Shown one piece after another: positions 6,443 to 48,171 of a stretch of 64,000 nucleotides of DNA. Numbering within the stretch: position 1 is the first letter of the stretch; every line of letters starts with the position of its first letter. A program made the translations under genes and the position numbers. The notes beneath the pieces are model-generated. The model searched no databases, was not told the DNA's origin, and saw nothing but the letters and a program-made list of their open reading frames with translations. This DNA is from Pseudodesulfovibrio nedwellii (GTDB lineage Bacteria > Desulfobacterota > Desulfovibrionia > Desulfovibrionales > Desulfovibrionaceae), in the NCBI RefSeq assembly GCF_027923765.1, contig NZ_AP026709.1, positions 3,275,501 to 3,339,500 on the forward strand, given 5' to 3'.

Positions 6443-8176
6443 ATGTCTGATACGCATTATTACCATGGGTTGGCCAAGAGTATGATGTTTACCATCATAC
6501 TCGTTTCCTTTGCTCCACTTTTGTGCATCGTTCTTATCGCTGGCTATCAATACAGTATTGTTTATGAAGAAAAGGTTGAGGCTCATTTACGTGAGTTGGT
6601 GCTGAAGCACGACCAATCGGTGGCTTCATATCTTGAAGAAAAAGTCGCTGAAATTCAGGTTCTTGCTGAAATTATTGAGTTGGGTAAACTCTACGATCCA
6701 GCCAGCCTTCAGGCCTTGCATGATGCGCTTGTTCGTGGTCATGGCAGTGATTTTGTGGATTTGGGCATGGTCAACAGTGAGGGAATTCAGGTCGCGTATG
6801 CAGGGCCATACAAGCTTCAGGGTGTGAACTATTCCGAAGAGGAATGGTTCAAGGCTGCCAAAAAGCGCAAGGTCCATGTCAGTGACGTGGGCCTGGGGCT
6901 TCGCGGAGTACCACATTTTACTATCGCCTTGTTGCTTGATGAAGATGGGCAGGAATGGGTTTTACGGACCACCCTCGATTTTATTGCTTTTAACAAGCTG
7001 GTTGAAGATATCCGTATCGGTGAAACCGGTTTGGCCTATATCATTAATAGACAGGCTGAGTTTCAGACCACCCCGCGTCGGGATATGACCGCTGAGGTCC
7101 CGTTCCTGCGTCAGATGGCTGTGGCCATGACTGAGCGATCCGGTCTGGTGAGAGGCAGGGCGGCCATGACTGTCGAGACCAATCCAGCCACTGGGCGCGA
7201 GACAATATTCGTGACAAGTCCTATCAAGAATGGCGATTGGATTATGGTGTATCAACAGGATGTGGCAGATGCCATGTCCGATTTGAACCGATCCAGGAAT
7301 CTGGCGTTGGTAGTTCTGTTAATTGGTGGAATTTCTATTGCGGTCATGGCGTATCTCATGAGCAAGCGCATGGCGCGTAAGGTGGCCCGGGCGGATGCGG
7401 CAAAGGATATCATGAATGAACAGGTTATTGAGGCTGGCAAGCTGGCATCTGTAGGAGAATTGGCCGCAGGTATCGCCCACGAGATCAATAATCCAGTAGC
7501 AATCATGGTGGAAGAAGCCGGGTGGATTCAGGATTTGCTTGAAGAGGGATTGGATGAGGATGATAATGAGCGAGAGGTACAACGCGCCTTGAATCAGATT
7601 AGGACTCAAGGGGGGCGATGTAAGGAAATTACCCATAAACTGCTCAGCTTCGCTCGGAAGATCGATCCCACGGTTAAGTCTGTTTGCCTCAACGAACTGG
7701 TTCTTGAAATTGTGCAGCTTTCCGAGCAGCGGGCCAAGTATGCCAATGTAGTGATTGAAACCAGTCTTGGTGACAGCATTCCTCCGGTAGAAGCCAGTCC
7801 GTCAGAGATGCAGCAAGTCTTTCTTAATTTGGTCAACAACGCCATTGACGCCATGGACCCGGGCGGTGGTAATCTCGACATTATGACTCGTGTGGAAGAT
7901 AATACAGTGATGGTTTCCATTGCCGATACCGGTTGCGGTATTCCGCAGGCCAATCTGTCGCGTATTTTCGATCCGTTTTTTACGACGAAACCCGTGGGTA
8001 AGGGGACTGGCCTTGGGCTGTCCATAATATACGGTATTATTAACAAGATGGACGGCACCATTGCGGTGAATTCCGCTGTGGATCAAGGAACGAAATTTAC
8101 CATCCGTTTGCCGGTGGCCGAAGGCGAGGATGGAGGTGCGTGTGATTTTAAAATGAATGAACATGGGGCATCATGA
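6443..8176 (+). CDS. Cache-domain sensor histidine kinase (cassette A)
   Basis: Membrane sensor kinase of 577 residues. Start ATG 6443 is preferred over GTG 6437, because GGAG at 6434 sits five bases ahead. Order: TM1 about 13-35, a periplasmic dCache-like sensor of about 250 residues (FVDLGMVNSEGIQVAYAGP, then IGETGLAYIINR), TM2 about 287-309, HisKA with H346 in GIAHEINNP, and an ATPase domain with N box NLVNNAIDAM, DTGCGIP, FFTTK and GTGLGLS. Cache domains bind small solutes such as organic acids; the ligand is unknown. Three receiver genes and a PEP-synthase-like gene follow in the same direction. It is a close paralogue of the kinase at 37674-39380. Confidence 0.92.
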   Translation: MSDTHYYHGLAKSMMFTIILVSFAPLLCIVLIAGYQYSIVYEEKVEAHLRELVLKHDQSVASYLEEKVAEIQVLAEIIELGKLYDPASLQALHDALVRGHGSDFVDLGMVNSEGIQVAYAGPYKLQGVNYSEEEWFKAAKKRKVHVSDVGLGLRGVPHFTIALLLDEDGQEWVLRTTLDFIAFNKLVEDIRIGETGLAYIINRQAEFQTTPRRDMTAEVPFLRQMAVAMTERSGLVRGRAAMTVETNPATGRETIFVTSPIKNGDWIMVYQQDVADAMSDLNRSRNLALVVLLIGGISIAVMAYLMSKRMARKVARADAAKDIMNEQVIEAGKLASVGELAAGIAHEINNPVAIMVEEAGWIQDLLEEGLDEDDNEREVQRALNQIRTQGGRCKEITHKLLSFARKIDPTVKSVCLNELVLEIVQLSEQRAKYANVVIETSLGDSIPPVEASPSEMQQVFLNLVNNAIDAMDPGGGNLDIMTRVEDNTVMVSIADTGCGIPQANLSRIFDPFFTTKPVGKGTGLGLSIIYGIINKMDGTIAVNSAVDQGTKFTIRLPVAEGEDGGACDFKMNEHGAS

Positions 8177-8205
8177 CGAGGTCCCGGTGAATCTGGAGGA
8201 AACAT

Positions 8206-8637
8206 ATGCCTGCGAATATTCTTCTCGTCGATGACGAACAGGGTTTTGTTGACACTATGGCCAAGCGGTTGGACAATCGTGGCCTGACGGTGACCATCGC
8301 CTACAGCGGACAGGAGGGTATAGATGCCTTGGCCGCTAATCATTTTATTGATGTGGTGGTTATGGACGTCAAGATGCCCGGTATGGATGGCAATGAGGCC
8401 TTGAAGGTGGTCAAATCGGAATTCCCGTTGGTGGAGGTCATCATGTTGACCGGTCATGCAACGGTGGAGTCCGCTATCGAGGGTATGAAGTCCGGTGCAT
8501 TCGACTACATGATGAAGCCGTGTGATCTTGAAGAATTGTTGGTCAAAGTCGATGAGGCCTATGACAAGAAACAAACTCATGAAACCAAAATTCATGAAGC
8601 CCGTGCCAGACATATTGTCCTGCGAAGGGGCGATTAG
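8206..8637 (+). CDS. Single-domain response regulator A1
   Basis: Receiver of 143 residues with acidic pocket D9-D10, phosphoacceptor D54 (VVMDVKMPGMDG), T82 and K104. It has no DNA-binding or enzymatic output; a charged helical tail of about 25 residues follows the receiver. GGAGG precedes the ATG. It is the first of three receivers behind the cassette A kinase and corresponds to 37250-37681 of cassette B, sharing VEVIMLTGHATV and AIEG. A stand-alone receiver with a tail could pass phosphate on or bind a partner protein; which is not visible. Confidence 0.92.
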   Translation: MPANILLVDDEQGFVDTMAKRLDNRGLTVTIAYSGQEGIDALAANHFIDVVVMDVKMPGMDGNEALKVVKSEFPLVEVIMLTGHATVESAIEGMKSGAFDYMMKPCDLEELLVKVDEAYDKKQTHETKIHEARARHIVLRRGD

Positions 8638-8649
8638 GAGGGATGCTTG

Positions 8650-9024
8650 ATGAGTGATGCGCCCATTCGCCTTCTTTTGGTGGATGATGAAGTCGGTTTT
8701 CTGGAAGTTTTACAGAAACGTTTGGGGAAGCGTGGGCTTAACGTGACCATTGCCATCAGTGGGGCCGAAGGCATACAGGTCTTGAGAGGGAGGGATTTCG
8801 ATGTGGCTGTCCTTGACCTCAAGTTGGAGGACATGGATGGTATTGAAGTCTTGCAGATATTTAAGAAGATGGTTCCTGAATTGCCGGTTATCATGCTGAC
8901 CGGTCATGGGAGTGAACAGGCGGCGCGGGAAGGTGTGGCATATGGCGCATTCGACTATATGCTTAAGCCGTGTGACCTTGATGATTTGTTGAAAAAGATT
9001 CGCCAGGCCGTTGATCAGGCATAA
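8650..9024 (+). CDS. Single-domain response regulator A2
   Basis: Receiver of 124 residues with D12-D13, phosphoacceptor D56 (VAVLDLKLEDMDG), the switch Thr in VIMLTGHG and the conserved Lys in YMLKPCD. Start ATG 8650 follows TAGGAGGGATG; the TTG three bases earlier is not needed. No output domain. Its best match in the window is 36841-37227, with which it shares the unusual DLKLE-MDGIE sequence in place of the usual D-x-x-MP, so proline is absent after the phosphosite in both paralogues. That shared oddity supports descent from one ancestral three-receiver cassette. Confidence 0.92.
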   Translation: MSDAPIRLLLVDDEVGFLEVLQKRLGKRGLNVTIAISGAEGIQVLRGRDFDVAVLDLKLEDMDGIEVLQIFKKMVPELPVIMLTGHGSEQAAREGVAYGAFDYMLKPCDLDDLLKKIRQAVDQA

Positions 9025-9047
9025 TTGGCAAATGATGGAGAGTGTAT

Positions 9048-9458
9048 ATGGCAGGCATCAAGGTGCTTCTCGTGGATGATGAAGCGGGTTTCCGTAAGAC
9101 GCTGGGTAAAAGGCTCGGCAGGCGGGGAATGACTGTTGAGGAAGCAGACTCGGGCGAAAAAGCTCTTGAAATTCTCGAATCATTTGAGCCGGATGTCGTT
9201 TTGCTTGATGTCAAGATGCCCGGCATGGATGGCCTGACAACTTTGCATAAGCTTAAACTGATCAACCCATTGGTCGAAGTAGTTATGCTTACCGGACACG
9301 CTAGCATGGATATTGCCATCAACGGTATGGAACTGGGGGCGTTTGACTACTTGATGAAGCCTGTGGAGTTCGAGGAGTTGTTGTATAAGCTTGAGGATGC
9401 CTCCATTCGTAAACGGCATCATGAAGAAAAAATTACGGCCAAGGAACACAGTCAGTAG
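9048..9458 (+). CDS. Single-domain response regulator A3
   Basis: Receiver of 136 residues with D10-D11, phosphoacceptor D54 (VVLLDVKMPGMDG), the switch Thr in VVMLTGHAS and the Lys in YLMKPVE. Start ATG 9048 has GGAG seven bases upstream; an in-frame GTG at 9042 is less well placed. A charged tail (about 20 residues) follows the receiver. It pairs with 36473-36844 of cassette B, including GKRL-RRGM near the N-terminus and MKPV near the end. The next gene, 58 bases on, is the PEP-synthase-like protein. Confidence 0.92.
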   Translation: MAGIKVLLVDDEAGFRKTLGKRLGRRGMTVEEADSGEKALEILESFEPDVVLLDVKMPGMDGLTTLHKLKLINPLVEVVMLTGHASMDIAINGMELGAFDYLMKPVEFEELLYKLEDASIRKRHHEEKITAKEHSQ

Positions 9459-9516
9459 CGGCCAATCATGATCTATTTTTCCCTGAAAATGTATTTTCTG
9501 TGTCGACGGAGGCCAT

Positions 9517-12090
9517 ATGGGCTTTCTTGACTGGTTGCCGTGGAGAGCGCGAAAGAAAACCCCTGAAGAATTGTCAGAGATTCGTCGGGTCTTTGCGGCG
9601 CGATATGATCATTTTCGTCTTTTGATTCAGGCCAACACGCGCGCCCATGAATTGATAGGTGAGCTGGAGGAAGCCCTGCGCGGTTTTACTCCTTATGGAA
9701 TGGAGTACGTCAACACTCTGTGCACTCGAATTTCAACATCTATTTTTCAAATGGTCCGTCATTTGGGTGAACTGGATCACAAAGGGCACGACGAGCTTAT
9801 GATCGCCATGCAGTCCATCAACGAGCGTATCATGACAGCGCTTGCGCCGGAAGAACATGTGATGAGCGGAGAGCTCGTCTTTGATTTGTCAGAAATTGGA
9901 CGGGATCATGCGGATTTGTGCGGTCCCAAGATGGCCATGCTCGGTGAGGCAGGGAGCAGTCTCGGGTTGAATATTCCTGCTGGATTCGTGGTTACTGTGG
10001 CGGCGTATCGACGGTTTGTTGAAGCCGGCGGATTGCGGCCGGAAGTGGCGCGACTCATTCAGGCTACTGATGGAAACGATAGAGAGGCTTTGTTTCGAAC
10101 CTCGTCGGATATAATGCAACTGGTCATGGAAACCCGATTGCCCGATGATTTGGCTGAAACAATTTTGGCCGCTTATGATCGGTTGAGCGAGCGACTTGGC
10201 GAACTGCCGGATCTGGCTGTTCGTTCCAGTGCTTTGGGTGAAGATGTCGAAGGTTCATCATATGCTGGGCAGTATCGGTCCGTCCTCAATGTGGACCGTG
10301 GAGCATTGTTGGATTCCTATAAGGAAGTGTTGGCATCTAAATTTTCAAGACAAGCCATGGCCTATCGCATGAATCGCGGCATCAGGGACGAAGATGTCGC
10401 CATGAGTGTGGGGTGCATGACCATGGTTCACGCCATGTCCGGGGGCGTGGCCTATTCCCGGAATCCGGTCAACGTGCGGGACGATTCCGTTTCTATTCAT
10501 TCTGTTTGGGGTTTACCCAAGCCAGTTGTCGATGGCACGGCTGAGACTGACGTGTTTTTGGTGAATCGTGATTCTCTGGTTGTGAACGACCGTATTGTTG
10601 CTGAAAAGCCCGATATGTTCGTGTGTAGCCCCAAGGAAGGCGTTTGTCGCGAAAGTTTGCTGGAGGAGCAACGGTGCGAACCTTCCTTGACTGATGAACA
10701 GGCCGCGACAATTGCCCGTGAGGCTGTACGGATTGAAGAACAATTTGGCACACCTCAAGACATAGAATGGGCCATGACGCCGGATGGCGTCTTCCATTTG
10801 TTGCAATGCAGGCCGCTTATGCAGATCGAGTCCGCCAAAATTGCCCATCCATCCGCTGCCGATTTGCCAAAGCCGGTCTTATCCGGTGGACGAACAGCCA
10901 GTCCCGGTGTTGGGGTTGGTCCTGCATATTCTGTAAGGAAAGACGTGGATGCTTTGTCTTTCCCTGACGGCGGGGTGTTAATTCTTAAACATGCTTTACC
11001 CAGTCGTGCGGCGTTGCTTGATCGATGCAGTGCGTTGATTTCGGAGCAGGGTGGCATGGCCGGTCATTTGGCGAATGTTGCGAGAGAATTTGGCGTTCCT
11101 GCGCTGTTTGGTGTGAAAGGTGTGGTCGGGAATTTTGAGAACGGTCATATCCTTACAGTGGATGCCGATGGCCACGCGGTGTATGATGGAGCGGTTGAAC
11201 CATTGCTCGTGGAAAAACCGAGAGAACGGATTATGCGCGGGAGTCCTGTGCAGGGAGCCCTCAGGAAAGCGGCGCGTCATATTGTTCGTCTTAATCTGAC
11301 TAACCCGGAATCCCCGGAATTCAAGCCGGAGAATTGTAAGACCCTGCACGACATCATGCGGTATTGTCATGAAAAGGGCGTAGCTGGAATGTTCGAGTTT
11401 GGCACGGACAACGATTTTATTGAAGCTGCGAGTCGTCAGCTTATTTGCGATGTCCCCAAACAGTTTTGGGTGTTAAATCTTGACGACGGTTTCTTGCCGG
11501 AAGGAGAGAACAGGTCTGACCAATGTATTTTGCTCAAACATGTGGACTCATACCCCATGCATGCCTTGTGGGAAGGGATGCAGGCAGTTCAGTGGGAAGG
11601 CCCCCCGCCGGTTCATACCAAGGGGCTTATGTCGGTCATGTTTGAGGCTACCATGAATCCGGATTTGAATCCGTCATCCGGCACTCGGTATACGCAGAAA
11701 AATTATTTCATGATTTCCAAAAATTATTGTTCGCTGCAATCTCGTTTCGGTTTTCATTTTTGTGGTGTCGAATCTCTGGTGTCAGATCGGACCAGCGAGA
11801 ATTACGCCAGTTTTCAATTCAAGGGTGGAGCTGCCAATGTGGAACGGCGCATTCTGCGTGCTCGTTTCGTGGGAGATCTATTGGAAGAACTGGAATTTCG
11901 TGTCCGTGTTCGTCAGGATAATATGTTCGCCCGAGCTGAAGGGCTTCCTCGGAAGGCCATGGGCAGGCGGTTGAAAATTCTTGGCTATCTCATCACGCAC
12001 ACCCGTCAGCTTGATATGATCATGACCAATAAGGCCGAAGTCGCACGACGCAAGGCTCGGTTCCTCAAGGATTTTGCGATGTTTGATTGA
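9517..12090 (+). CDS. PEP/pyruvate-binding and phosphohistidine-domain protein without TIM barrel
   Basis: An 857-residue relative of phosphoenolpyruvate synthase. Residues 1-140 form a charged helical domain of no recognised family. About 145-430 matches the ATP-grasp PEP/pyruvate-binding domain (LAVRSSALGEDVEGSSYAGQ, then PQDIEWAMTPDG and LLQCRP). About 455-565 is the swivelling phosphohistidine domain, with the His in GGMAGHLANVAREFGVPA. The last 290 residues do not contain the usual PEP-binding TIM barrel and are not recognised; SENYASFQFKGGAA is its most motif-like part. The enzyme may therefore transfer phosphate to something other than pyruvate, or act as a phosphorelay partner. It lies directly behind the three receivers of cassette A. 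Start has GGAGG. Confidence 0.82.
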   Translation: MGFLDWLPWRARKKTPEELSEIRRVFAARYDHFRLLIQANTRAHELIGELEEALRGFTPYGMEYVNTLCTRISTSIFQMVRHLGELDHKGHDELMIAMQSINERIMTALAPEEHVMSGELVFDLSEIGRDHADLCGPKMAMLGEAGSSLGLNIPAGFVVTVAAYRRFVEAGGLRPEVARLIQATDGNDREALFRTSSDIMQLVMETRLPDDLAETILAAYDRLSERLGELPDLAVRSSALGEDVEGSSYAGQYRSVLNVDRGALLDSYKEVLASKFSRQAMAYRMNRGIRDEDVAMSVGCMTMVHAMSGGVAYSRNPVNVRDDSVSIHSVWGLPKPVVDGTAETDVFLVNRDSLVVNDRIVAEKPDMFVCSPKEGVCRESLLEEQRCEPSLTDEQAATIAREAVRIEEQFGTPQDIEWAMTPDGVFHLLQCRPLMQIESAKIAHPSAADLPKPVLSGGRTASPGVGVGPAYSVRKDVDALSFPDGGVLILKHALPSRAALLDRCSALISEQGGMAGHLANVAREFGVPALFGVKGVVGNFENGHILTVDADGHAVYDGAVEPLLVEKPRERIMRGSPVQGALRKAARHIVRLNLTNPESPEFKPENCKTLHDIMRYCHEKGVAGMFEFGTDNDFIEAASRQLICDVPKQFWVLNLDDGFLPEGENRSDQCILLKHVDSYPMHALWEGMQAVQWEGPPPVHTKGLMSVMFEATMNPDLNPSSGTRYTQKNYFMISKNYCSLQSRFGFHFCGVESLVSDRTSENYASFQFKGGAANVERRILRARFVGDLLEELEFRVRVRQDNMFARAEGLPRKAMGRRLKILGYLITHTRQLDMIMTNKAEVARRKARFLKDFAMFD

Positions 12091-12169: not shown

Positions 12170-12571
12170 CTACTTAGTGTGGCATTCGCCGCAGGCAACC
12201 GGGCCTTTGGCCTGCTGCTTGTGGCAATCAATGCACTGCTTGTGGTAGGCGCGCATCAGCGGAGTGCCGCCGTCAGTGCGTTCTACCTCATGGCAGGATG
12301 CACAGGTTTCGCCTTCGCTGGAGTTTTCAAGGTCCTGCTTGCCGTCATCGGTGATACCGTGGTGACAGACAACGCAGTCTTCCAATTCTGCCTTTTCATT
12401 GTGGGCGTCATGCATGAAGGGGACCTGCGGGCGTTCGAGTTTGGCGAATGCGTCCACGGGGATCATTGTCATGTCGTCCTGAGCAAAGGCGGCCGGAGCC
12501 ATGTATGCGATGACCAGCGCAAGGATGGTCAGCATGGAGGCCGCAAGCTTAATGGTATTTCTTTTGTGCAT
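12170..12571 (-). CDS. tmcA: Acidic (type II) tetrahaem cytochrome c3, TmcA
   Basis: Periplasmic electron carrier of the Tmc complex. A Sec signal peptide (residues 1-30, ending PAAFA) precedes four CxxCH haem sites: C66-H70, C90-H94, C113-H117 and C127-H131. His residues at 54, 57, 71 and 110 can serve as distal ligands, as in cytochrome c3. TmcA receives electrons from type I cytochrome c3, in turn reduced by periplasmic hydrogenases or formate dehydrogenase, and hands them to the membrane partners. It is the last gene of tmcDCBA, 10 bases behind tmcB. Its low-identity, acidic composition fits the type II group rather than ordinary c3. Confidence 0.93.
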   Translation of the reverse strand: MHKRNTIKLAASMLTILALVIAYMAPAAFAQDDMTMIPVDAFAKLERPQVPFMHDAHNEKAELEDCVVCHHGITDDGKQDLENSSEGETCASCHEVERTDGGTPLMRAYHKQCIDCHKQQAKGPVACGECHTK

Positions 12572-12581
12572 GGCGTCCTCC

Positions 12582-13898: not shown

Positions 13899-13934
13899 TA
13901 TTCATAACCTCGCGTTACTTTGATTAGTTGTGGC

Positions 13935-14594
13935 CTACCAGTCGTTGGCGTGGCGAACGCCACCGAACTCGGAACCCATGTACGCCCTGGTGAACAGGAT
14001 GAACAATGCATGGCTCAGGCGGGTGAACGGAATCAGCGCAATAAGAAGTTCTGCGAAGATTACGTGCAAGGTAGTCATCAGGAGAACCGGACCCACCTGA
14101 TGGTAGGCCAGAACGCCAGTGATGAATGGCATCACAACAAGAATCAGGGCAAACCAATCCTGACAGCGGGTCACGCCCTTGACGTGAGGCAGTGTCAATC
14201 GGCGGTATGCGAAAACCGCACAGCCAGCGATGGCCACGAAGCTGATGACATCTCCCATGTAGGAGGGCAGGCTCGGAATACTGATACCAAATGCGGTGTC
14301 CCAAAGAACCACGTGGGCGTTCAGAAACACGGCCACCAAAAGGAACGCGATGTGAAACACGAAAGTGGTCACGGTCGCGAGGGGGTCGGATTGCCAGCCC
14401 TGGGATTTGAAAGGCACCATCCATGCGAGGATGGAGCGCAGTCCGTAGTACCAGCTCATGTAAGCCAGAGAGGAGCCGTCTTTGGCCTTGGCCAAAGCAT
14501 ACATGCTCACCAGACGGTAAATGGAACCGATGATGAAGATGCCGAAAGCAACCCAGGCGAGGGGGCCGGTGACGAAAGTATACAAATCAGTCAT
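13935..14594 (-). CDS. tmcC: Tmc complex membrane cytochrome b, TmcC
   Basis: Integral membrane protein of 219 residues of the NarI/DsrM-like b-type cytochrome kind, with five or six hydrophobic helices (for example WVAFGIFIIGSIYRLV, FVFHIAFLLVAVFL, WFALILVVMPFITGVLAY). Histidines inside helices (FHIAF, ANAHVVLW-like segment, TTLHVIFAE) are suitable haem ligands. It connects periplasmic TmcA with cytoplasmic TmcB. The start at 14594 lies 15 bases after the tmcD stop, so translation is likely coupled; the tmcB start follows 36 bases after its own stop. Confidence 0.92.
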   Translation of the reverse strand: MTDLYTFVTGPLAWVAFGIFIIGSIYRLVSMYALAKAKDGSSLAYMSWYYGLRSILAWMVPFKSQGWQSDPLATVTTFVFHIAFLLVAVFLNAHVVLWDTAFGISIPSLPSYMGDVISFVAIAGCAVFAYRRLTLPHVKGVTRCQDWFALILVVMPFITGVLAYHQVGPVLLMTTLHVIFAELLIALIPFTRLSHALFILFTRAYMGSEFGGVRHANDW

Positions 14595-14609
14595 TGCGTC
14601 TCCCTTCGC

Positions 14610-20032: not shown

Positions 20033-20034
20033 TA

Positions 20035-31478: not shown

Positions 31479-32813
31479 TTATTTTTGAGCGTCCATTCGT
31501 TTGAGCTTCTCGCGCAGGGTCTTTCGGTTGATTCCGAGGATTTCTGCGGCTCGGGTCTTGTTGTCGCCGGTCATGGCAAGCACGTTGAGGATGTGTTCGG
31601 CTTCGACTTCATCGAGGGAACGGTCAACGCGTCCGCCTGCTGGCAGACTGAACCGCATGTCTTCCGGGAGATCTGCGACTTCGATCACGTCTCGGTCTAC
31701 AATGACGACCAGACGGTGGATGAGATTTTCCATTTCGCGGACATTGCCGGGCCACGGATGATTGCGGAGGGCATTGAGGGCTTCGTCGCTCAGGACAGGT
31801 GCAGTGCGCCGCATGGTTTTTGAAAATTTGTTCAGGAAATGGTTGATGAGCGCTAGCATGTCGTCACCACGTTCTCGCAAAGTGGGAACCGGGATGTCTA
31901 CGATGTTTATGCGGTAATAGAGGTCTTCGCGGAAGCTGCCTTCCTCTACCAGTTGTTTAAGGTTTTCGTGGGTGGCGGCCAGAATACGAGTGTCAGCAGT
32001 GAGCACCTTGCTGGAGCCTACCTTGCAGAATTCTTTTGATTGGATGACCCGAAGGATTTTGGCCTGCATGTTGGGGCTGGCGTCACCAATTTCGTCCAGA
32101 AAAATTGAGCCGCTGTGTGCTATTTCGAAAAAACCAGCCCGACCGTTTTTGGCGCCGGTAAAGGCTCCTTTGACATGGCCGAAAAGTTCGGATTCTACGA
32201 GTCCTTCCGGGATGGCGGTACAGTTGACCGGGACGAACGGGGCGGAACGGCGGTCGCTGTTGTAGTGGACTGCACGGGCCACAAGCTCTTTACCTGTGCC
32301 TGAATTGCCAGAAATAAGGACGTTGGCATCGCTTTTGGCGGCCTGCTCTATACGACGGAAGACCCTTTTCATTTCCGGGGAATCGCCGATGATACCAAAG
32401 TTGTCGGGTGGCGTGTCGCCGGTACTTAGGATGCGGCGCCGGAGCAGTCGATCCACAATGCGCTGTACAGCCGTAAGCAGTTCATCTGTTGTGAAAGGTT
32501 TGGCGAGGTATTCTCCGGCGCCGTCCTTGATGGCTTTGACCGCTCCGGGAATGGAGGGGTAGCCGGTGATCATCATGATTTCCGTGTGCTGGTGATTGTC
32601 ACGGACGTGTTTGATGAGGTCCAGACCGGTCGCTTGTGGCATGCGAAAATCCGTGATGACAAGGTCTATGTCCAGTTCCTCAAGTAAGGGCAGGGCTTCG
32701 GCCACGGCCTGGCATGTATAGACTTCGTATCCGCCGGACTGAAGGTTGCGCTTGAGAACTTCAAGGGTGTTGGCGCTGTCGTCCACGGCCAGAATCCTAA
32801 TATGATCACTCAT
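31479..32813 (-). CDS. NtrC-family sigma-54 response regulator
   Basis: A 444-residue transcriptional activator. Receiver 1-120 with D11-D12, phosphoacceptor D55 (VITDFRMP) and Lys in LAKPFT. AAA+ domain about 140-375 with Walker A GNSGTGKE, the sigma-54 contact loop GAFTGA, Walker B IFLDEIGD and WPGNVREMENL. Fis-type helix-turn-helix at the end (NKTRAAEILGINRKTLREKL). It activates sigma-54 promoters when phosphorylated by the kinase at 32810-34297, whose stop overlaps its start by four bases. No sigma-54 promoter that it might control could be fixed by eye in the flanks. Confidence 0.94.
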   Translation of the reverse strand: MSDHIRILAVDDSANTLEVLKRNLQSGGYEVYTCQAVAEALPLLEELDIDLVITDFRMPQATGLDLIKHVRDNHQHTEIMMITGYPSIPGAVKAIKDGAGEYLAKPFTTDELLTAVQRIVDRLLRRRILSTGDTPPDNFGIIGDSPEMKRVFRRIEQAAKSDANVLISGNSGTGKELVARAVHYNSDRRSAPFVPVNCTAIPEGLVESELFGHVKGAFTGAKNGRAGFFEIAHSGSIFLDEIGDASPNMQAKILRVIQSKEFCKVGSSKVLTADTRILAATHENLKQLVEEGSFREDLYYRINIVDIPVPTLRERGDDMLALINHFLNKFSKTMRRTAPVLSDEALNALRNHPWPGNVREMENLIHRLVVIVDRDVIEVADLPEDMRFSLPAGGRVDRSLDEVEAEHILNVLAMTGDNKTRAAEILGINRKTLREKLKRMDAQK

Positions 32814-34297
32814 GGGTATACCGTTGTGTTGCGTTGACTGGGGAAGGCGATTTCTACCTGCGTACCATTGTTTTGGGTGGAGTTTACCTGAATGAATCCG
32901 TTGTGTGCCTTGACGATTCCGTGAACTACGGACAGGCCTAATCCGGTTCCTTTGTCCACATCTTTGGTGGTGTAAAACGGGCTGAATATCTGTTTGAGTG
33001 TGTCCTGCTTCATCCCTGAGCCAGTGTCTTCTACTATGAGATAGACATCGCCCTTATCCACCGTGCGTGCCGTCAAAGTGCCGCCATCGGGCATGGCCTG
33101 AATGGCGTTGGCTGCCAGGTTGACTACGACCTGTTTGATGTGTTGAGGGTCAGCCATTATGTGGGGGAGGGCTTCGTCAAATTCACACCGGACTTCGACA
33201 TGGGAACGTTTGGCATTGGCCGAGGTGATATGCAAGGCCTGATCCACCAATTCGTTGAGATTTACAGCGATTTTTTGGGGTGGGAACTGGCGGCTGAAGA
33301 ACATGAGTTTGCGGATGATCTCGCGTGCGTGCAGGGATGAGTCCACGATATTTCCAAGATCATTGGTCGCTTGTTCCGGCAGTTTTGGTGTCTGGAGGGC
33401 CAGTTGAGCAAATCCGAGAATGTTCGCCAGTGGTTCGTTGATTTCATGGGCTACGCCAGCAGAAAATTGGCCGATTTTTGCCAATCGGTCTGCTTGTCGG
33501 AGTTGGCTCTCGAGAGCCTGTTTTGCTCGACGGGTTTCCTTTTTTCCGATGAGGATTGAGACTTGTTTTGCCACCATGACCAGAAAGCCTTTTTTGTGTC
33601 TGAGTATGGCAGGGGAAGGGTGCTCTTCGCTGTTATCCACGGATACAGTCAGCATACCCCGATGTTCCTCATTGACAAGTAGTGGTTCTGCAAAGGAATG
33701 GATATCTTCTGAAATTCCTACGGTTTTCCAGGTTTCGCCATCCAGACTGATTCGGACATGCGTCCGAGCCGGGTCCTTGAAAGCGTGTGGCAGAAGGTGG
33801 ACTACCTGATCCAACATAGAGGCGAGCTTCGGCTGCATACTCGTCATGATCTGGCTGATTTTATAGAGACAGTCGAGTTCCCGGTTGCGTTCGATCAGGG
33901 AATACCTTTCACGAAGCAGTCCTTTTTCGCGCAGGATGAGGTTAGTCACGTCCTGTCCAACGCATAACAGGCTGATAATTTCGCCGTTGGAGTCGGTCAG
34001 GGGTTTGAGGTTCCAGTTGACGTAAACTGTATCACCGTCTCTGGCTGAAATGACTCCGGCAAAGGCGGATATGTCGAGTTCTTGAAAACTGTCAGTGATG
34101 GCGTGTCGAGCGGCCTCTCGATCTTCTTCTGGGATGAAGGTTTCAAACCAGTCCCGCCCAGCCAGTTCCTGCATGGTGTAGCCGGAAAGGAATTCAAGTT
34201 CCGAGTTACCGTGAATGATCCTCCCCTTAATATCCAGCGTGACCACGATGCCGTGGGTGAGCTGCATGACCGTTTCGTAATAATTGTGGAGGTTCAT
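32810..34297 (-). CDS. Soluble PAS histidine kinase, partner of the NtrC-like regulator
   Basis: Start at 34297 (MNLHNYYETV) with AAGGA six bases ahead; the adjacent ATG 34300 is also possible, and the extension to 34462 is rejected. 495 residues without membrane helices: PAS about 8-125 (GIVVTLDIKGRIIHGNSELEFLSGYT), a middle region of about 140 residues that could be GAF-like, HisKA with His in FSAGVAHEINEPLANILGF, and ATPase with NLAANAIQAM, DTGSGM and GTGLGLS. The absence of membrane segments points to an intracellular signal. It is translationally coupled to the regulator. Confidence 0.91.
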   Translation of the reverse strand: MNLHNYYETVMQLTHGIVVTLDIKGRIIHGNSELEFLSGYTMQELAGRDWFETFIPEEDREAARHAITDSFQELDISAFAGVISARDGDTVYVNWNLKPLTDSNGEIISLLCVGQDVTNLILREKGLLRERYSLIERNRELDCLYKISQIMTSMQPKLASMLDQVVHLLPHAFKDPARTHVRISLDGETWKTVGISEDIHSFAEPLLVNEEHRGMLTVSVDNSEEHPSPAILRHKKGFLVMVAKQVSILIGKKETRRAKQALESQLRQADRLAKIGQFSAGVAHEINEPLANILGFAQLALQTPKLPEQATNDLGNIVDSSLHAREIIRKLMFFSRQFPPQKIAVNLNELVDQALHITSANAKRSHVEVRCEFDEALPHIMADPQHIKQVVVNLAANAIQAMPDGGTLTARTVDKGDVYLIVEDTGSGMKQDTLKQIFSPFYTTKDVDKGTGLGLSVVHGIVKAHNGFIQVNSTQNNGTQVEIAFPSQRNTTVYP

Positions 34298-34375
34298 CAT
34301 ATTTCCTTTATGGATATAAAATATATGGAAATCGGTGATGAGTAAACACCCGTGACCAGAAAGGGCGTAAAGGGT

Positions 34376-34411
34376 GCACGGCCCGACCTCTCGGGGACGG
34401 TCGGGCCGTGC
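34376..34411 (-). terminator. Strong hairpin downstream of cassette B
   Basis: Perfect 13-bp stem, GCACGGCCCGACC (34376-34388) with GGTCGGGCCGTGC (34399-34411). On the minus strand it follows the stop at 34438 and is trailed by a weak T-rich stretch (CACCCTTTACG), so it is a terminator with a poor tract. Confidence 0.7.
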
Positions 34412-34437
34412 GGCATAGGGTATGTACTTACAATGAA

Positions 34438-35124
34438 TTAATGGCTGAGTCTCAGTCCCCATCCTTCAAAGACGAAGAGAATGGCAAAGCCGTACCACAG
34501 GGTATAGAAGACATAGAAGACCAGTGAGAATATAACCAGACCAAGATTATCCATGATGTGCATGGGCTCAATCTTGAAGTAGTTGTATGCGGCTTCCACT
34601 CCCTTCTTTTCTATAGTGTTGATAACCTTGGCAGCTTCAAACTGACCTTGGTCCGTGAGTTCCTTGTCCATGAGCTTCAGGCTGGTCCACCAGTTGAACA
34701 TGATTCGCCGGGGTTCCAGGTTGTATTTTGTTTGCAGTACGTCACCCTTGTTGTGATACATGGTGTCGCAGTCCGTGAGGGTTGCATCCAGAATGCTGCC
34801 CAAAGAACCGTTGACGTGTAACGCCTTTCCCTGCAGAGCGGTTTTGACACCGGCTGTCAGGAACAGGGCCGTGGCCTGACTGGCTTCGATCTCGCTGTCG
34901 TAGTTCAGCGTTAAATCAATGTCCGTGGATGCATACTTGCTGAATTCTTTCTTGAGAGCCGGGGCATATTCCACGGATCCCTTTGAGATTGAGTTGTAAA
35001 GGTTATCTAGATATTCCATTGCATTGTGACCATTAAATAATGGCTGGAACATGAAGAACAGGACAACGAAGAAGGCTACCAGGAGACCTGCGCCTCCATA
35101 GAATTCCTTTTTGTTATGAATCAT
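34438..35124 (-). CDS. Unknown membrane protein next to TauE/SafE permease
   Basis: I do not recognise the family. 228 residues: one helix near the N-terminus (GAGLLVAFFVVLFFMFQPLF), an extracytoplasmic domain of about 140 residues, and a C-terminal hydrophobic region (LGLVIFSLVFYVFYTLWYGFAILFVF) that could be one or two helices. Its start is one base from the permease stop, so the two proteins are probably made together and may form a complex. It ends cassette B. Confidence 0.78.
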   Translation of the reverse strand: MIHNKKEFYGGAGLLVAFFVVLFFMFQPLFNGHNAMEYLDNLYNSISKGSVEYAPALKKEFSKYASTDIDLTLNYDSEIEASQATALFLTAGVKTALQGKALHVNGSLGSILDATLTDCDTMYHNKGDVLQTKYNLEPRRIMFNWWTSLKLMDKELTDQGQFEAAKVINTIEKKGVEAAYNYFKIEPMHIMDNLGLVIFSLVFYVFYTLWYGFAILFVFEGWGLRLSH

Positions 35125-35125
35125 T

Positions 35126-36403
35126 TTACGCCTCCTTTCGCTTGAGCGACGAGATGTTCTTGAGGAACGTTCCGATGACCCAGACGGAGAATCCTCCGAT
35201 CACAATGAAAAACGCCCATATACCGATATCGTTAAGTATCGATCCGAATCCGGGCGAAATGGGAATGAGACCCATCTCACCAAGTTTGCCCGGCAGGGCG
35301 AAAATACGGTTCATGAAGCCGGCCAGGACAGCCATTGCGTAGAAGCCGCGAATGGTGATGCCAGGAACAACTTTGGTGACCAAAGCACCGATCTGGATAC
35401 CAAGGAGGGAGCCGATGAGCATACCCATAGCCAAGGTATAAAAGATGAATCCGTAGATAGCGTACTGGGTGACTGATGCAAAACCTGCAGTGAATACAAT
35501 CTGGAAGATGTCAGTACCGACTGTTGTCATGGATGACACACCCAGAACGTAGACGAAGATCGGGAAGGTCAGGAACCCACCACCAACACCCATGATGCCT
35601 GCAGCCAGACCGACGAGGAGACCAGACAGAACCAGGAATATCCAGGAGATTTTGCGTCCGCCGGGAATGAGGTCTTGGTCGAACTTGATCATGGGCGGGA
35701 ACTTGACGTCCTGAAGGGACTTGGACATGGCGCCAATTTCTACACCCTCTTCGCCACCGTGCGCTCCGCCGCCTTTATCAGCCTTGCGAGAACGAAGGAA
35801 GTCGGTCAGGGCATAGATGCCGAGGAATCCAAGCATGACGGAATAAATAGTGGTGATGAACGCGTCGCTCAAGACCGGATTTATTTCATACAATACACGG
35901 TTGATGATACCGCCAGCCGTGGCTCCAAGGACGGCTCCAATAAGGAACACTGCGGCCAGAGGGACGGAGACATTACCGAGTTTGCGGTGAATGACACTGC
36001 CCATGATCGCCTTGGCGAAAATATGGAAAAGGTCTGTACCAACTGCCAGAATGCCTTTGATGCCTGCGGACATGAGGGCCGGGGCGATAATGAATCCGCC
36101 ACCCGCGCCGATACATCCGGTAATCAGGCCTGCCCCCACGCCGATGGCGATGGACACAAGGAAAATGCCCAGACTGTAAAACGCCGGACTGTATGCTTTC
36201 TTTCCACCGAGCAGATCGGGCAACAACGGTCCGATGTCATCGGCAAAGGCAATGCCGCCAAGAATGATGGGAATGACCATCAAGCCAATAATCATAAGCT
36301 TCTTTCGGCTGCTCACGATGGACTTGGCATTGGCGATTTCCCACTCTGCCATGGCGCCAGCCCCGGCGAGCATGAACTTCCCCCACTGACTGAAAAATCT
36401 CAT
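35126..36403 (-). CDS. TauE/SafE-family permease
   Basis: Start at 36403 (MRFFSQWGKFMLAG), preceded by GAGGA; a start 12 bases earlier is less likely. 425 residues with about eight or nine helices in two related halves, each with a Gly-rich motif: GAGLITGCIGAGGGFIIAPAL near residue 90 and GLAAGIMGVGGGFLTFPIFVY near 270. This internal repeat is the TauE/SafE (DUF81) signature; members export sulfite, sulfoacetate or other organosulfur anions. A hydrophilic insert (KADKGGGAHGGEEGVE) separates the halves. It takes the place held by the PEP-synthase-like gene in cassette A. Confidence 0.9.
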   Translation of the reverse strand: MRFFSQWGKFMLAGAGAMAEWEIANAKSIVSSRKKLMIIGLMVIPIILGGIAFADDIGPLLPDLLGGKKAYSPAFYSLGIFLVSIAIGVGAGLITGCIGAGGGFIIAPALMSAGIKGILAVGTDLFHIFAKAIMGSVIHRKLGNVSVPLAAVFLIGAVLGATAGGIINRVLYEINPVLSDAFITTIYSVMLGFLGIYALTDFLRSRKADKGGGAHGGEEGVEIGAMSKSLQDVKFPPMIKFDQDLIPGGRKISWIFLVLSGLLVGLAAGIMGVGGGFLTFPIFVYVLGVSSMTTVGTDIFQIVFTAGFASVTQYAIYGFIFYTLAMGMLIGSLLGIQIGALVTKVVPGITIRGFYAMAVLAGFMNRIFALPGKLGEMGLIPISPGFGSILNDIGIWAFFIVIGGFSVWVIGTFLKNISSLKRKEA

Positions 36404-36472
36404 GTGTATCCTCACTTCCTTTAGGTGTTGTATCGTCTGGATTCCGTCTAATTAAAGTATGGAAATCCTGAT

Positions 36473-36844
36473 TCACGTATCATTTCTGCTTGCTTCACGC
36501 ACTTTGTCAACCAATTCGTCAATATTTACCGGCTTCATCAGGTATCCGCAGGCTCCAAGTCCCATGCTTGCAAGGACCATGTCCGTGTCTGCGTGGGCAG
36601 TGAGCATTATGACAGCTATCTGTGGATGAGTCCGTTTGATTTCGCTCAGGGTTCTGAGTCCGTCCATGCCTGCCATTTTAATATCAAGCAGGATGACATC
36701 CACTGGACGGTTGTCGAGTTCGGTCAACGCATTTTGGCCGCTGGAGGCGGTGTGGACGTCCATGCCACGCCGCGCTAGTCGTTTGCCAAGAGGTGCGCTG
36801 AAATCGATTTCGTCATCGACCAGCAGAATCCTGATTTGTTTCAT
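36473..36844 (-). CDS. Single-domain response regulator B3
   Basis: Receiver of 123 residues with the acidic pair in LLVDDEIDF, phosphoacceptor in VILLDIKMAGMDG (Ala replaces the usual Pro), Thr in VIMLTAHAD and Lys in YLMKPVN. No output domain. It overlaps the gene upstream by four bases (stop of B2, start of B3). It corresponds to A3 at 9048-9458, sharing GKRL-RRGM and MKPV, but lacks that receiver's charged tail. Confidence 0.91.
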   Translation of the reverse strand: MKQIRILLVDDEIDFSAPLGKRLARRGMDVHTASSGQNALTELDNRPVDVILLDIKMAGMDGLRTLSEIKRTHPQIAVIMLTAHADTDMVLASMGLGACGYLMKPVNIDELVDKVREASRNDT

Positions 36845-37227
36845 GACGCTCTCTCCAGGCTGACTTGCTGGGAAATCATGTCCAGCAGTGCGCTGAAATC
36901 GAATGGTTTCGACAGATATCCGGCGGCACCGTTTTTTATACAGGCCGCTCTTGCCACTTCACATCCATGGCCAGTCAGCATGATGACCGGCATTTGCGGT
37001 ATCAGCAGCTTGAAGACTTTCAGGATTTCGATTCCATCCATGCCTTCGAGCTTAAGGTCCACGATGGCGACATCGAAATCACGGTTTCGGAGAATTTGGA
37101 TAGCCTCCTCGCCGCTGGAAGCAGTGCAGGCGTTGACGCCTCGCCGCTCCATGCGCTTGCAGAGTACGTCTGCAAAGCCGGTTTCATCGTCTACGATGAG
37201 CAATCTGATTTCTTTGATGTCTGTCAT
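36841..37227 (-). CDS. Single-domain response regulator B2
   Basis: Receiver of 128 residues with DDE near the N-terminus, phosphoacceptor in VAIVDLKLEGMDGIE, Thr in VIMLTGHG and Lys in YLSKPFD. It keeps the unusual DLKLE sequence after the phosphosite that is also present in A2 (8650-9024), and RDFDVA before it. No output domain. It sits 22 bases after B1 and overlaps B3. Confidence 0.91.
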   Translation of the reverse strand: MTDIKEIRLLIVDDETGFADVLCKRMERRGVNACTASSGEEAIQILRNRDFDVAIVDLKLEGMDGIEILKVFKLLIPQMPVIMLTGHGCEVARAACIKNGAAGYLSKPFDFSALLDMISQQVSLERAS

Positions 37228-37249
37228 GTTTTGTTCCGCCTTCGAACTG

Positions 37250-37681
37250 TTACGCCATGCGTTGGGCGATGTCCGAGACCCGGGCGTCCACTGCCTCGGC
37301 CTCGTGGTCTTGCTTCAACGCCACTGCTTCAAGGATCTTGGCATTCAATTCTTCAAAGTCGCAGGGCTTCATGAGATAGTCGTATGCCCCGTGCTGGATT
37401 CCCTCGATGGCTGTGGGGACCGTTGCATGGCCAGTCAACATGATGACTTCGACCAGAGAGTACGCTTCCTTGATTTCCTGCAAGACTGTCAGGCCGTCCT
37501 TGATGGGCATCTTCATGTCCAGAATGACGACTTGAATACCTGGATTTTCTGCAAGCCGAGTCATGGCTTCGTCGCCGTTGAACGCCTTGAAGACAGACAT
37601 GTTTCGCTTACCGAGTCGCTTGGCAACCGCTTCCACGAAGCCCACTTCATCGTCCACTATCAATACGGTGGCATCAGTCAT
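37250..37681 (-). CDS. Single-domain response regulator B1
   Basis: Start at 37681 (MTDATVLIVDDEVGF), overlapping the kinase stop by eight bases and preceded by AGGAG; a longer frame to 37777 is inside the kinase. 143 residues: D10-D11, phosphoacceptor D55 (VVILDMKMPIKDG), Thr in VIMLTGHATV and Lys in YLMKPCD, then a charged tail of about 20 residues. It is the match of A1 (8206-8637), with the same length and tail. Confidence 0.92.
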   Translation of the reverse strand: MTDATVLIVDDEVGFVEAVAKRLGKRNMSVFKAFNGDEAMTRLAENPGIQVVILDMKMPIKDGLTVLQEIKEAYSLVEVIMLTGHATVPTAIEGIQHGAYDYLMKPCDFEELNAKILEAVALKQDHEAEAVDARVSDIAQRMA

Positions 37682-39380
37682 GGAGCATCTCCTTTGGTGT
37701 TTCCTGATTGGTGTGGTGAGGAGGAATGGGGAGCCGGATATTGAATCTGGTTCCTTTCCCCACGGTACTTTCAACATCTATTTCTCCACCCATTTGGTGG
37801 ATGATTCCGAAACATATGGACAGTCCAAGTCCGCTGCCCTTGCCCACGGGCTTGGTGGTGAAAAATGGATCAAATATCCTATTCAGATTGGCAGCCGCGA
37901 TACCGGGACCAGTGTCGGCCACCGAGATGAGGATCTGACTATCCTCGGTTCCGCACGAGACGGACAGAACGCCCCCGACAGGTTCCATGGCTTGGATGGA
38001 ATTGTTCACGAGATTGAGGAGCACCTGCTGCAATTCCGTGGTTGAAGCATTGATACTCGGTAGATCCGTGTCGAGATCCAGCGAAAAGTCCACCTTGGCG
38101 TATTTGGCTTGTTGCATGGATATGTCCACCACTTCTTCAACAAGCTCCGGCAGAGATATTTCAGTAGCGCGAGAATCAGACTGTCGGGCAAAGCTGAGGA
38201 GCTTATGGGTGATGTCTTTGCACCGTTGTCCCTGAGTACGGACTTGATGCAGAGCACGGTCGATTTCGGTCGAAGCCTTTATTTGGGCCTTTTCATCTTC
38301 CAAGAGGTCGCTGACCCATCCCGCTTCCTCGATCATGATGGCAACGGGGTTATTTATTTCGTGAGCAATTCCCGCCGCAAGTTCGCCGATAGCTGCCAGC
38401 TTACCGGTTTCCACAATCTGCTTGCTCATCAACTCGGATTCCACATCCATGGACTTGAGTCTGACCACGAGCTTGCGGGAGATGACGATTGCTGTAGCAA
38501 CGATGGCAACGCCGCCCAACAGGAAAATAATGAGTGTGACCATTTCACTGCGCGTCATGGCAGAAAAAGCGTCTGCGTAATTTTGTTGATATACGAGTGA
38601 CCAGTCGCCGTTCTTCATGGGCGAGGAAACTGTGATGTATGTGTCGTCATTCTCAGCAAGGGCTTCACGGATGGTGATACCCCGGACGCTTGCCGGGATG
38701 AGAGTGGACTTGATTGGGGTCAAGGCCATTTTCTGGTTGTTCAGGGGTGTTGTCTGAAACACGCCTTCTCGATTGAGAATATAAGCGCAGCCGGTTTCAC
38801 CGATGCGGATGTTTTCAACGATGGAACTGAAGGCCAGGAAGTCAATGGATGCACGAAGTGTCCATTGTTGTTTATCCATGTTGTTTATGGTGATGATGAA
38901 ATGAGGAGATTGGCGCAGTCCCATGAATACGTCACTGATGTACGTGGTCTTGTTTCGAGACTTTTTGTACCATTGAGCCTGTGAATAATCGGCACCGAGC
39001 AGCTCGAGTGGCCCGGCGTATGCCACCTGCTTGCCGTTTTCATCAATCACTCCGAGGTCCACGAAGATGCGACCATACTGCTGACGTAATCCCTTCAGAG
39101 TATTTTCGATGAATACGGGGTCAGAGAGTTGTTCGTAGGTAAAAACCTTGTTGAGGTATTGAATTTCCGAGAGTTTTTCCTTGAGGAAACTGTCGATCTC
39201 ATGCTTGTGCTTGTCTACGAGCTCGGCAAGGTGTGCGTATACTTTTTCGTGATATATGGAACGGAATTGGTCGAAAATCAGGCCACCCACCAGAATCAAC
39301 GGAGCCAGCGAAACCGCGATGATGGTCAGCGCGATGTTGCGGGACAGTTTGTCGTACGAGACGTTCTTTTCAGGGTGCAT
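37674..39380 (-). CDS. Cache-domain sensor histidine kinase (cassette B)
   Basis: Start at 39380 (MHPEKNVSYDKLSRN); an upstream GTG at 39440 has no well-placed ribosome site. 568 residues: TM1 about 16-37, periplasmic dCache-like domain (IFVDLGVIDENGKQVAYAGP, IGETGCAYILNR), TM2 about 280-302, HisKA with H340 in GIAHEINNPVAIMIEEAGW, and ATPase with NLVNNSIQAM, DTGPGI and GSGLGLS. It is a close paralogue of the kinase at 6443-8176; the helix after the His (THKLLSFAR) is identical in both. Receivers B1-B3 follow. Confidence 0.92.
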   Translation of the reverse strand: MHPEKNVSYDKLSRNIALTIIAVSLAPLILVGGLIFDQFRSIYHEKVYAHLAELVDKHKHEIDSFLKEKLSEIQYLNKVFTYEQLSDPVFIENTLKGLRQQYGRIFVDLGVIDENGKQVAYAGPLELLGADYSQAQWYKKSRNKTTYISDVFMGLRQSPHFIITINNMDKQQWTLRASIDFLAFSSIVENIRIGETGCAYILNREGVFQTTPLNNQKMALTPIKSTLIPASVRGITIREALAENDDTYITVSSPMKNGDWSLVYQQNYADAFSAMTRSEMVTLIIFLLGGVAIVATAIVISRKLVVRLKSMDVESELMSKQIVETGKLAAIGELAAGIAHEINNPVAIMIEEAGWVSDLLEDEKAQIKASTEIDRALHQVRTQGQRCKDITHKLLSFARQSDSRATEISLPELVEEVVDISMQQAKYAKVDFSLDLDTDLPSINASTTELQQVLLNLVNNSIQAMEPVGGVLSVSCGTEDSQILISVADTGPGIAAANLNRIFDPFFTTKPVGKGSGLGLSICFGIIHQMGGEIDVESTVGKGTRFNIRLPIPPHHTNQETPKEMLHD

Positions 39381-39821
39381 GGCTGGTTCCAATGTCTTTG
39401 TCGAGGTTCCACGTATTTTAATGAGATCAATGAGTCTCACCCTCTAAAAAGCAAATGGTGTGCCATTGGATGGATGGTCGACTATAAAGAGGGTAATAGG
39501 GGTTACCGTCTCTTACTCATTGAAATAAAAGAATTTATTTTAATAATTAAGAGAGCATCATTGAGCCTTCAGGATGAAGTGAGAGGGGGAATTAAAGAGA
39601 GTTAGTTCAAGCTTTTCTTTTGAATTGGTACATTTTGTCTCGGTGGTACAAAACGCCTCGCCGGGAGAAAATGGGGCGAAAAACCGTTGATTTCAAAGGT
39701 GAGAATGAAAGAAAAATGGAGGCGAGGCATTTTGTACCACCTCGAAGCGTCCATTTGAGAATGATTCAGTTTTTATATTTTCAAGAGGTATTTTTTTTAA
39801 AGGAAAAGATAGAAAATTGAA
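39381..39821. other. Intergenic region between cassette B and wtpABC
   Basis: About 440 AT-rich bases without a supported gene. It should carry the cassette B promoter (minus strand, right of 39380). The main structure is the long inverted repeat at 39641-39744, described separately. Confidence 0.6.
39641..39744. repeat. Inverted repeat with 21-base arms around 60 bases
   Basis: Left arm 39641-39662 (core GGTGGTACAAAACGCCTCGC) and right arm 39721-39744 are reverse complements except for one base (C versus T) over 21 bases. The 58-base interior is AT-rich and has no frame. It could be a miniature transposable-element relic or a large RNA hairpin downstream of wtpC. Confidence 0.7.
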
Positions 39822-41704: not shown

Positions 41705-41709
41705 GGTTA

Positions 41710-42690: not shown

Positions 42691-42702
42691 AAAACCTCCT
42701 AG

Positions 42703-42719
42703 ACATATAGTCATATATT
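42703..42719. promoter_or_regulatory. AT-rich symmetric element before wtpA
   Basis: ATATA (42705-42709) and TATAT (42714-42718) flank GTCA, and the element begins GACATATAG. It sits about 12 bases upstream of the wtpA ribosome site. ModE-type sites have TATATA arms, and the GACATA core also occurs in the inverted repeat before fdhA. Assignment to a metal-responsive regulator is inference. Confidence 0.3.
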
Positions 42720-48040: not shown

Positions 48041-48171
48041 GATTCGGCTCCGTGCTCGACGCTTGTAACAACGTATTGCCACTCTTCGTTACTGGCTTGG
48101 CTCCGAAAAGACAAGAAATCCTCATAACCCCACGAAACTGCATCTGTCAGCAGTGTCTTGGAACGGAGTGA

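Follow-up and report, generated by a model that had tools for sequence, protein, structure and literature searches.

Gene content of the two cassettes

The window, i.e. the whole 64,000-nucleotide stretch of DNA analysed here from the sulfate reducer Pseudodesulfovibrio nedwellii, carries two signalling cassettes, A (6443-12090, forward strand) and B (34438-39380, reverse strand), whose positions in an earlier, sequence-only reading were confirmed. Each encodes a dCache histidine kinase and then three receivers (R1, R2 and R3) in equal order, and Pfam bears out the claim that the receivers lack an output domain, all six small proteins consisting of a single Response_reg domain. Cassette A continues with a PEP-synthase-like protein (PEP-like, or PEP in gene orders and trees) and cassette B with a TauE/SafE permease (TauE) and a membrane protein (MP), as had been described; missing from that description was the segment 31479-34462, with a PAS kinase and an NtrC-type regulator, which also belongs to B (Table 1).

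Table 1. Features of cassettes A and B, with positions in the window
Feature	Position	Strand	Basis
A kinase, dCache_1-HisKA-HATPase_c	6443..8176	+	Pfam; A clade of kinase tree
A receiver R1	8206..8637	+	Response_reg only; R1 family in receiver tree
A receiver R2, DLKLE phosphosite	8647..9024	+	Response_reg; R2 family; residue survey
A receiver R3	9042..9458	+	Response_reg; R3 family
A PEP-synthase-like protein: N-terminal ~118 residues, PPDK_N, phosphohistidine domain, C-terminal domain	9517..12090	+	Pfam
B sigma-54 -24/-12 match, TGGCAC-N5-TTGCT	39450..39465	-	11/11 specified positions; 85 nt before B kinase ATG
B kinase, dCache_1-HisKA-HATPase_c	37674..39380	-	Pfam
B receiver R1, begins at internal ATG of longer open frame	37250..37681	-	Response_reg; R1 family
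B receiver R2, DLKLE phosphosite	36841..37227	-	Response_reg; R2 family; residue survey
B receiver R3	36473..36844	-	Response_reg; R3 family
B TauE/SafE (TSUP) permease	35126..36415	-	PF01925; TauE trees
B MP, membrane protein	34438..35124	-	Hydrophobic helix at each end, ~165 residues between
B PAS histidine kinase, conserved end of B	32810..34462	-	Pfam; 26/26 genus B loci
B NtrC-type sigma-54 activator, conserved end of B	31479..32813	-	Pfam; 26/26 genus B loci

Both cassettes have the hallmarks of two-component signalling, namely kinases with HisKA and HATPase_c domains and receivers with a phospho-Asp and the conserved D, T/S and K, and no histidine phosphotransfer domain scored above the Pfam cut-off among the A or B proteins. 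The two kinases are 47% identical over 579 columns. A GTG at 39440 is an improbable start for the B kinase, lying about 10 nt beyond the -12 element. The B permease belongs to the TSUP family (PF01925, 126.6 bits against a cut-off of 32.6). The source genome, a single contig of 3.76 Mb, carries both cassettes and at least four more loci with related kinases and receivers, so that A and B belong to a larger set. Directly upstream of cassette B lies an ABC transporter with a tungstate-type (WtpA) binding protein (39822-42714).

Receiver families

Gene-by-gene pairing of the receivers was upheld: A1-B1, A2-B2 and A3-B3 are reciprocal best-scoring among 16 receivers of the genome that were compared, with one tie (A3 scores equally against B3 and A1). 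A tree of 136 receivers resolved R1, R2 and R3 families, each with A, B and outgroup members, at SH-aLRT values of 80-90 from few columns; its rows are named by order, so that loci without R1 carry shifted names. The DLKLE phosphosite of R2, noted before as unusual, is genuinely so, since none of the 32 R2 rows from A and B has the proline customary at D+4, the residue there being E, G or Q. Every one of the 32 R1 rows from A and B keeps the proline; a 33rd row bearing the R1 label, from L084, is not part of the cassette and was not counted. The phosphorylation residues, namely DD, the phospho-Asp, T or S and K, are kept in 98/98 A- and B-labelled receiver rows, while DN replaces DD in one of 14 divergent receiver copies and one outgroup row is degenerate. 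The distinct families, the R2 signature and the kept phosphosites together indicate that the receivers are old, distinct and mostly maintained, single receivers being absent in some loci. In the 136-receiver tree, 14 genus loci carry a fourth, divergent receiver of the R3 family ahead of the B kinase; it was not found beside the window's own B locus.

The PEP-like protein and the membrane protein

The name PEP-synthase-like fits the ATP-grasp and phosphohistidine domains but not the remainder of PEP synthase. PF01326 (PPDK_N) and PF00391 (PEP-utilizers) both match, and the ATP-grasp and swivel-histidine motifs are conserved in 46 PEP-like sequences; these are the domains held in common with PEP synthase (pyruvate,water dikinase). 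Against TIGR01418 the protein reaches 307 bits where the cut-off is 739.75, and the match ends at model position 489 of 784. No Pfam match to a C-terminal PEP/pyruvate-binding domain was obtained at E 0.001; the protein differs from PEP synthase in having a distinct conserved C-terminal domain of 290 residues, for which neither the Pfam families nor the PDB sequences gave a match. The first 118 residues likewise gave no Pfam match. A structural model of the C-terminal domain (pLDDT 78.9) had no PDB match at E <0.001 and a best VIA Z of 5.7, and no fold was therefore assigned or excluded. Rifampin phosphotransferase (Rph) combines the same two phosphotransfer domains with a different acceptor end, and the PEP-like protein scores 229 bits against the Rph cut-off of 999.

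Of 148 genomes sampled from the phylum, 60 contain the C-terminal family, which had no match on plasmids at E 1e-5. TauE was present in 13 of 20 flanks of such genes (0.74 expected, from 134 TauE matches in ~65.2 Mb); the flanks are the best match of 19 genomes and the second best of G131, and their ranking by likeness to the window family may favour A-like contexts.

MP matched no Pfam family above cut-off, and its model (pLDDT 86.3) matched no PDB entry at E <0.001. An Alph_Pro_TM protein occupies the place of MP in four other families, and comparison of the two by hhalign (probability 0.9%) showed no kinship. In other families of the phylum, genes for TauE, PEP-like proteins and receivers repeatedly have such Alph_Pro_TM proteins as neighbours (L132-L135), and universal-stress proteins as well (tested at L122, L126, L132 and L133).

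An ancestral cassette and complementary losses

Gene order was read with reference proteins at A and B loci from the genus and at the nearest loci from other families, excluding the distant-kinase loci L016-L031. The kinase and TauE trees were built without L012, L014, L097 and L105, and the careful PEP tree without the low-scoring PEP of L060 and 11 other rows, mostly near-copies. The complete order kinase-R1-R2-R3-TauE-MP-PEP runs in one line at five loci from deep members of the genus (L080, L085, L086, L095 and L096, with the PEP of L086 split over two frames) and at L088 outside it. Near-full cassettes are found in deep genus members without R1 (L084, L087, L098) or with R3 not seen (L064), and among outgroups without PEP (L089) or, again, with R3 not seen (L039); the cassette of L013 stops at a contig end. 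The presence of full cassettes in the genus and outside it indicates that the ancestral cassette carried both output partners.

The A loci without TauE-MP form one clade of 19 rows in the kinase tree (SH-aLRT 97), which points to one loss. TauE-MP is present in all B loci of the genus, and at four of these (L032, L038, L047, L050) a divergent R3-type receiver and a PEP-like gene stand beside the kinase. This B-adjacent PEP clusters with the A PEP (92/87), and its position suggests that B probably once had a PEP gene and lost it elsewhere. It is thus very probable that A and B are duplicates of one seven-gene cassette and that in this lineage TauE-MP disappeared from A and the PEP-like gene from B.

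Descent from a common ancestral module, which the sequence-only reading had proposed, agrees with the trees, in that the receivers cluster by cassette position, and A and B form separate groups in each of the trees of kinase, TauE, MP and PEP. That reading had also looked to receiver and kinase trees for one shared duplication; the positional grouping appeared (SH-aLRT 80-90), and the sisterhood of A and B is weak, at 94/84 for the kinase, 92/87 for PEP and 64/43 for kinase and PEP joined. This weak sisterhood suggests that the duplication may be older than the genus.

Among 35 genomes of the genus (G000-G034), 19 are split, with A carrying PEP only and B carrying TauE-MP only; seven have a full A without B, three a full A together with B, and four a B with the divergent R3 and PEP but without A. 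Two genomes (G020 and G031) have neither cassette at E 1e-100. Two of the full A cassettes are interrupted: that of G008 lies over two contigs (L097 ends within MP, and L161 carries MP-PEP at a contig end), and the kinase of G009 is in two frames. The losses amount to only a few events in the tree, so that the 35 genomes cannot be counted as independent tests. An extra cassette of G015 (L051) was kept outside the tally; it comprises an NhaB-type gene, a kinase and receivers, and the kinase tree places it with neither A nor B.

Promoters

A sigma-54 -24/-12 site matching 10 or 11 of 11 positions precedes the kinase match by 62-102 nt in 26/26 B loci of the genus, whereas none of 28 A-clade loci reaches 9 of 11 upstream of A (the scan did not cover a 29th locus, L064, whose kinase lies in two frames). 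Outgroup matches were 10 positions at L089, 200 nt away, and 9 at L088. At loci added later, L148 matched 11 positions, L150 matched 10 but 266 nt away, and L141 and L149 matched 9. Cassette B has both the upstream -24/-12 element and an activator gene; judged from the sequence, its own NtrC-type regulator probably drives its transcription from the sigma-54 promoter. B may have retained an ancestral promoter type that A lost.

Joint retention of TauE and the PEP-like gene

With a second genome of the source species added to the 35, TauE (E 1e-60) was found in 34 of 36 genus genomes and PEP (E 1e-150) in the identical 34. The two genomes with neither at these cut-offs, G020 (whose assembly is only 87% complete) and G031, have a more distant PEP (283 and 241 bits, respectively, with the C-terminal profile). 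TauE is single-copy in 31 genus genomes and double in the three with both a full A and a B. PEP of at least 54% identity occurs once in each of 30 genomes, namely the 29 with A and the second genome of the source species. The B-adjacent PEP of the four B-only genomes reaches 45-47% identity, and G016 holds others of similar score.

For 13 further loci from the order, we fixed in advance the expectation that A-only genomes keep TauE-MP-PEP and B-only genomes keep PEP; seven fitted and six did not. In six of the fitting loci (L138, L139, L141, L142, L146, L149) the kinase is followed by TauE-MP-PEP, in some cases with a reduced number of receivers, and the seventh, B-type L148, has an adjacent PEP, yet one that falls inside the A clade and is not B-type. 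As for those that did not fit, L140 lacks TauE, L143, L144 and L145 consist of a kinase and one receiver only, L147 has a distant PEP, and the operon of L150 has neither TauE nor PEP. Strict reciprocity everywhere is therefore rejected, as these six of 13 loci do not show it.

Whole-genome search of the six non-fitting genomes recovered TauE in five and PEP of at least 380 bits, a cut drawn after seeing the values, in the same five. The exception is G265 (L147), with a kinase, R1, a best PEP of only 300 bits and no TauE of the A/B family. The five genomes with broken-up loci (G259, G260, G264, G269, G287) retain PEP and a TauE-MP pair without kinase, which in four of them stands beside a PAS-kinase/NtrC pair. 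Their TauE genes form one clade (SH-aLRT 100), and the stand-alone arrangement may go back to one separation event. Of their PEP genes, those of L140 and L159 lie on the A side of the tree, those of G264, G269 and G287 cluster with outgroup PEPs (90) and not with A or B, and that of L160 (G260) lies near the PEPs of the C loci (80). The locus-level expectation thus failed in about half the cases, yet TauE and PEP co-occur in 12 of the 13 genomes.

In the window a tmcABCD-type electron-transfer operon (12170-15869) is convergent with cassette A, an arrangement shared by 14 of the 19 split genomes (four lack it, and in one A lies at a contig end). The lone PEP genes of G287 and G269 are also a few kilobases from tmc.

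Comparison with known systems

Branched two-component systems, in which one kinase serves several receivers, are familiar from chemotaxis. Chemotaxis and VemR likewise combine one kinase with single-domain receivers; unlike theirs, the receivers here come with genes for a transporter and a phosphotransferase. Full-text literature searches found no paper on three-receiver cassettes.

The closest described counterpart is the nitrate cluster of Desulfovibrio (DVU0251-DVU0245/Dde_0597-Dde_0605), whose parts are TauE, a hypothetical protein and PtxB, a kinase with a single receiver, a PEP-like enzyme and a phosphatase (PMC4001038). The claim that no named system has this make-up thus holds for three receivers, while a one-receiver version of the parts list is this cluster (PMC4001038). 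Isolated mutants of the PEP-like, receiver, membrane protein and permease genes (DVU0246, 0247, 0250 and 0251) were resistant to nitrate, growing alike whether or not 100 mM of it was present, and the phosphatase mutant was inhibited (PMC4001038). Mutation of the kinase DVU0248, which carries a pseudogene annotation, brought at most a slight advantage in preliminary growth data, although the pools were positive, and the pooled data for the membrane protein DVU0250 disagreed (PMC4001038). Leaky thiosulfate transport was suggested by the authors (PMC4001038).

A TauE-like permease, a small membrane protein, a histidine kinase, an output-less receiver and a PEP-synthase-like enzyme are common to the nitrate cluster and to full loci such as L080 and L088; in the window this parts list is divided over A and B. 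The nitrate cluster differs in its one receiver, against three in A and B, and in its phosphonate-type binding protein and phosphatase, neither of which is found among the A and B genes. The source genome has its own counterpart, the F locus L008 (757-9977; G000:C1:1598756-1607976), with the order and content of the nitrate cluster, phosphonate-type binding protein and phosphatase included, and one extra gene on the opposite strand. Its kinase is of sCache/PAS type rather than dCache_1. Identities between A/B and the nitrate cluster were taken from L008 proteins, not from the published sequences: TauE is 26% identical over part of its length and the PEP-like protein 33% over most of it, while the L008 membrane protein is not detectably related to MP. 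On these sequence comparisons, A and B are a different branch of the nitrate-cluster kind. The B permease also belongs to the same family as the TSUP/CysZ-type and TauE transporters of sulfate reducers, for which function prediction was called not feasible (PMC5840216).

A proposed joint system and its alternatives

The complementary losses leave the genome with two sensor kinases, six receivers, one TauE-MP and one A/B-type PEP-like enzyme. Since each copy kept a different half of the output, A and B probably still form one system. The best explanation, to which we lean with some reserve, is a duplicated seven-gene cassette that lost complementary output halves, with TauE-MP and the PEP-like enzyme now acting in trans. 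Its observed basis is gene content, the gene trees, joint retention and the promoter pattern, and its strongest functional argument, by analogy, would be the joint retention of TauE and PEP together with the common phenotype of the four nitrate-cluster mutants. That TauE-MP and PEP function jointly is likely. In the proposed mechanism, the dCache domain of each kinase would sense an extracellular ligand, and the kinase would pass phosphate to receivers without DNA-binding output, which may then dock on TauE-MP, the PEP-like enzyme or both. The ATP-grasp/histidine machinery of the PEP-like enzyme would phosphorylate some acceptor, and this could activate or tune the uptake of a sulfur oxyanion or a similar anion, with one TauE-MP and one PEP-like enzyme presumably working together in trans under both sensor arms. 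Direct control by receivers through protein contact is plausible, though we would put it at somewhat under even. More tentative still is the full picture of one signalling-controlled transport system cut in two, with six receivers converging on a TauE-MP and PEP-like pair in separate operons and directly controlling an energy-coupled or covalently regulated anion transporter; literature searches turned up no two-component output that directly controls such a transporter.

A and B could instead be independent by now, with A regulating the phosphotransferase and B the anion transporter, each through its own receivers, and the losses reflecting specialisation. The promoter class differs between them, as do the neighbours (tmc beside A in 14/19 split genomes, and for B its own PAS kinase and NtrC regulator), and a kinase identity of 47% marks the copies as old. 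Specialisation of this kind fits less well with the presence or absence of TauE and close PEP together across the 36 genus genomes, at the cut-offs used, and with the persistence of both parts in the five related genomes where the operon is broken up, and we regard it as rather unlikely. The receivers might also be phosphorelay links or phosphate sinks that feed the B NtrC, so that the real output is transcription, with TauE and PEP merely as targets. All of them could carry phosphate, given the intact phosphosite residues of the 98 A- and B-labelled rows; the PAS kinase and NtrC-type activator end 26/26 B loci together with a sigma-54 promoter, and several full A or outgroup cassettes have a PAS-kinase/NtrC pair just upstream. 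We nevertheless judge such a relay improbable, as the A and B proteins contain no histidine phosphotransfer domain above the Pfam cut-off, and two or three receivers are present in full A and outgroup cassettes that have no NtrC inside the operon.

The sequence-only reading took the different endings of present-day A and B to mean that an ancestral kinase with three receivers had exchanged its downstream partner. This is contradicted by cassettes that hold both partners in equal order, inside the A clade and in outgroups, so that each copy lost one partner. The TauE of A-type loci also forms its own clade apart from B TauE, and neither A-type TauE nor B-adjacent PEP falls with unrelated loci in the trees; partner exchange is accordingly rejected, and we would give it very little chance.

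Under the preferred reading, complementary loss followed by action in trans, the gene history names likely targets for output-less receivers, which are otherwise hard to guess. It also links the PEP-like enzyme family, present in 60 of the 148 phylum genomes sampled, to a transporter family. Both families are tied to a published nitrate-resistance phenotype that is of practical interest for sulfide control (PMC4001038). A and B are, in addition, a natural case of a duplicated operon that divides its output between the copies.

Other loci with related parts

Related parts recur elsewhere in the source genome. Locus L005 (4909-14614; G000:C1:1464908-1474613) encodes a receiver, a PEP-like protein, a dCache kinase, a receiver, a second kinase, a receiver, an NhaB-type antiporter and a PAS kinase. 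Locus L007 (7381-13973; G000:C1:1619380-1625972) begins with a SulP permease and a cytidylate-kinase-like protein fused to a receiver, and continues with a dCache kinase and two receivers that have a short HisKA-like protein between them; here too an anion transporter stands together with receivers and a phosphotransferase-like domain. Within the window itself, one run at 19241-24301 encodes a solute-binding protein, a 1067-residue PAS kinase and a receiver-HD-domain protein, and another at 44083-48082 encodes a periplasmic binding protein, an sCache/PAS kinase and a receiver fused to a STAS domain.
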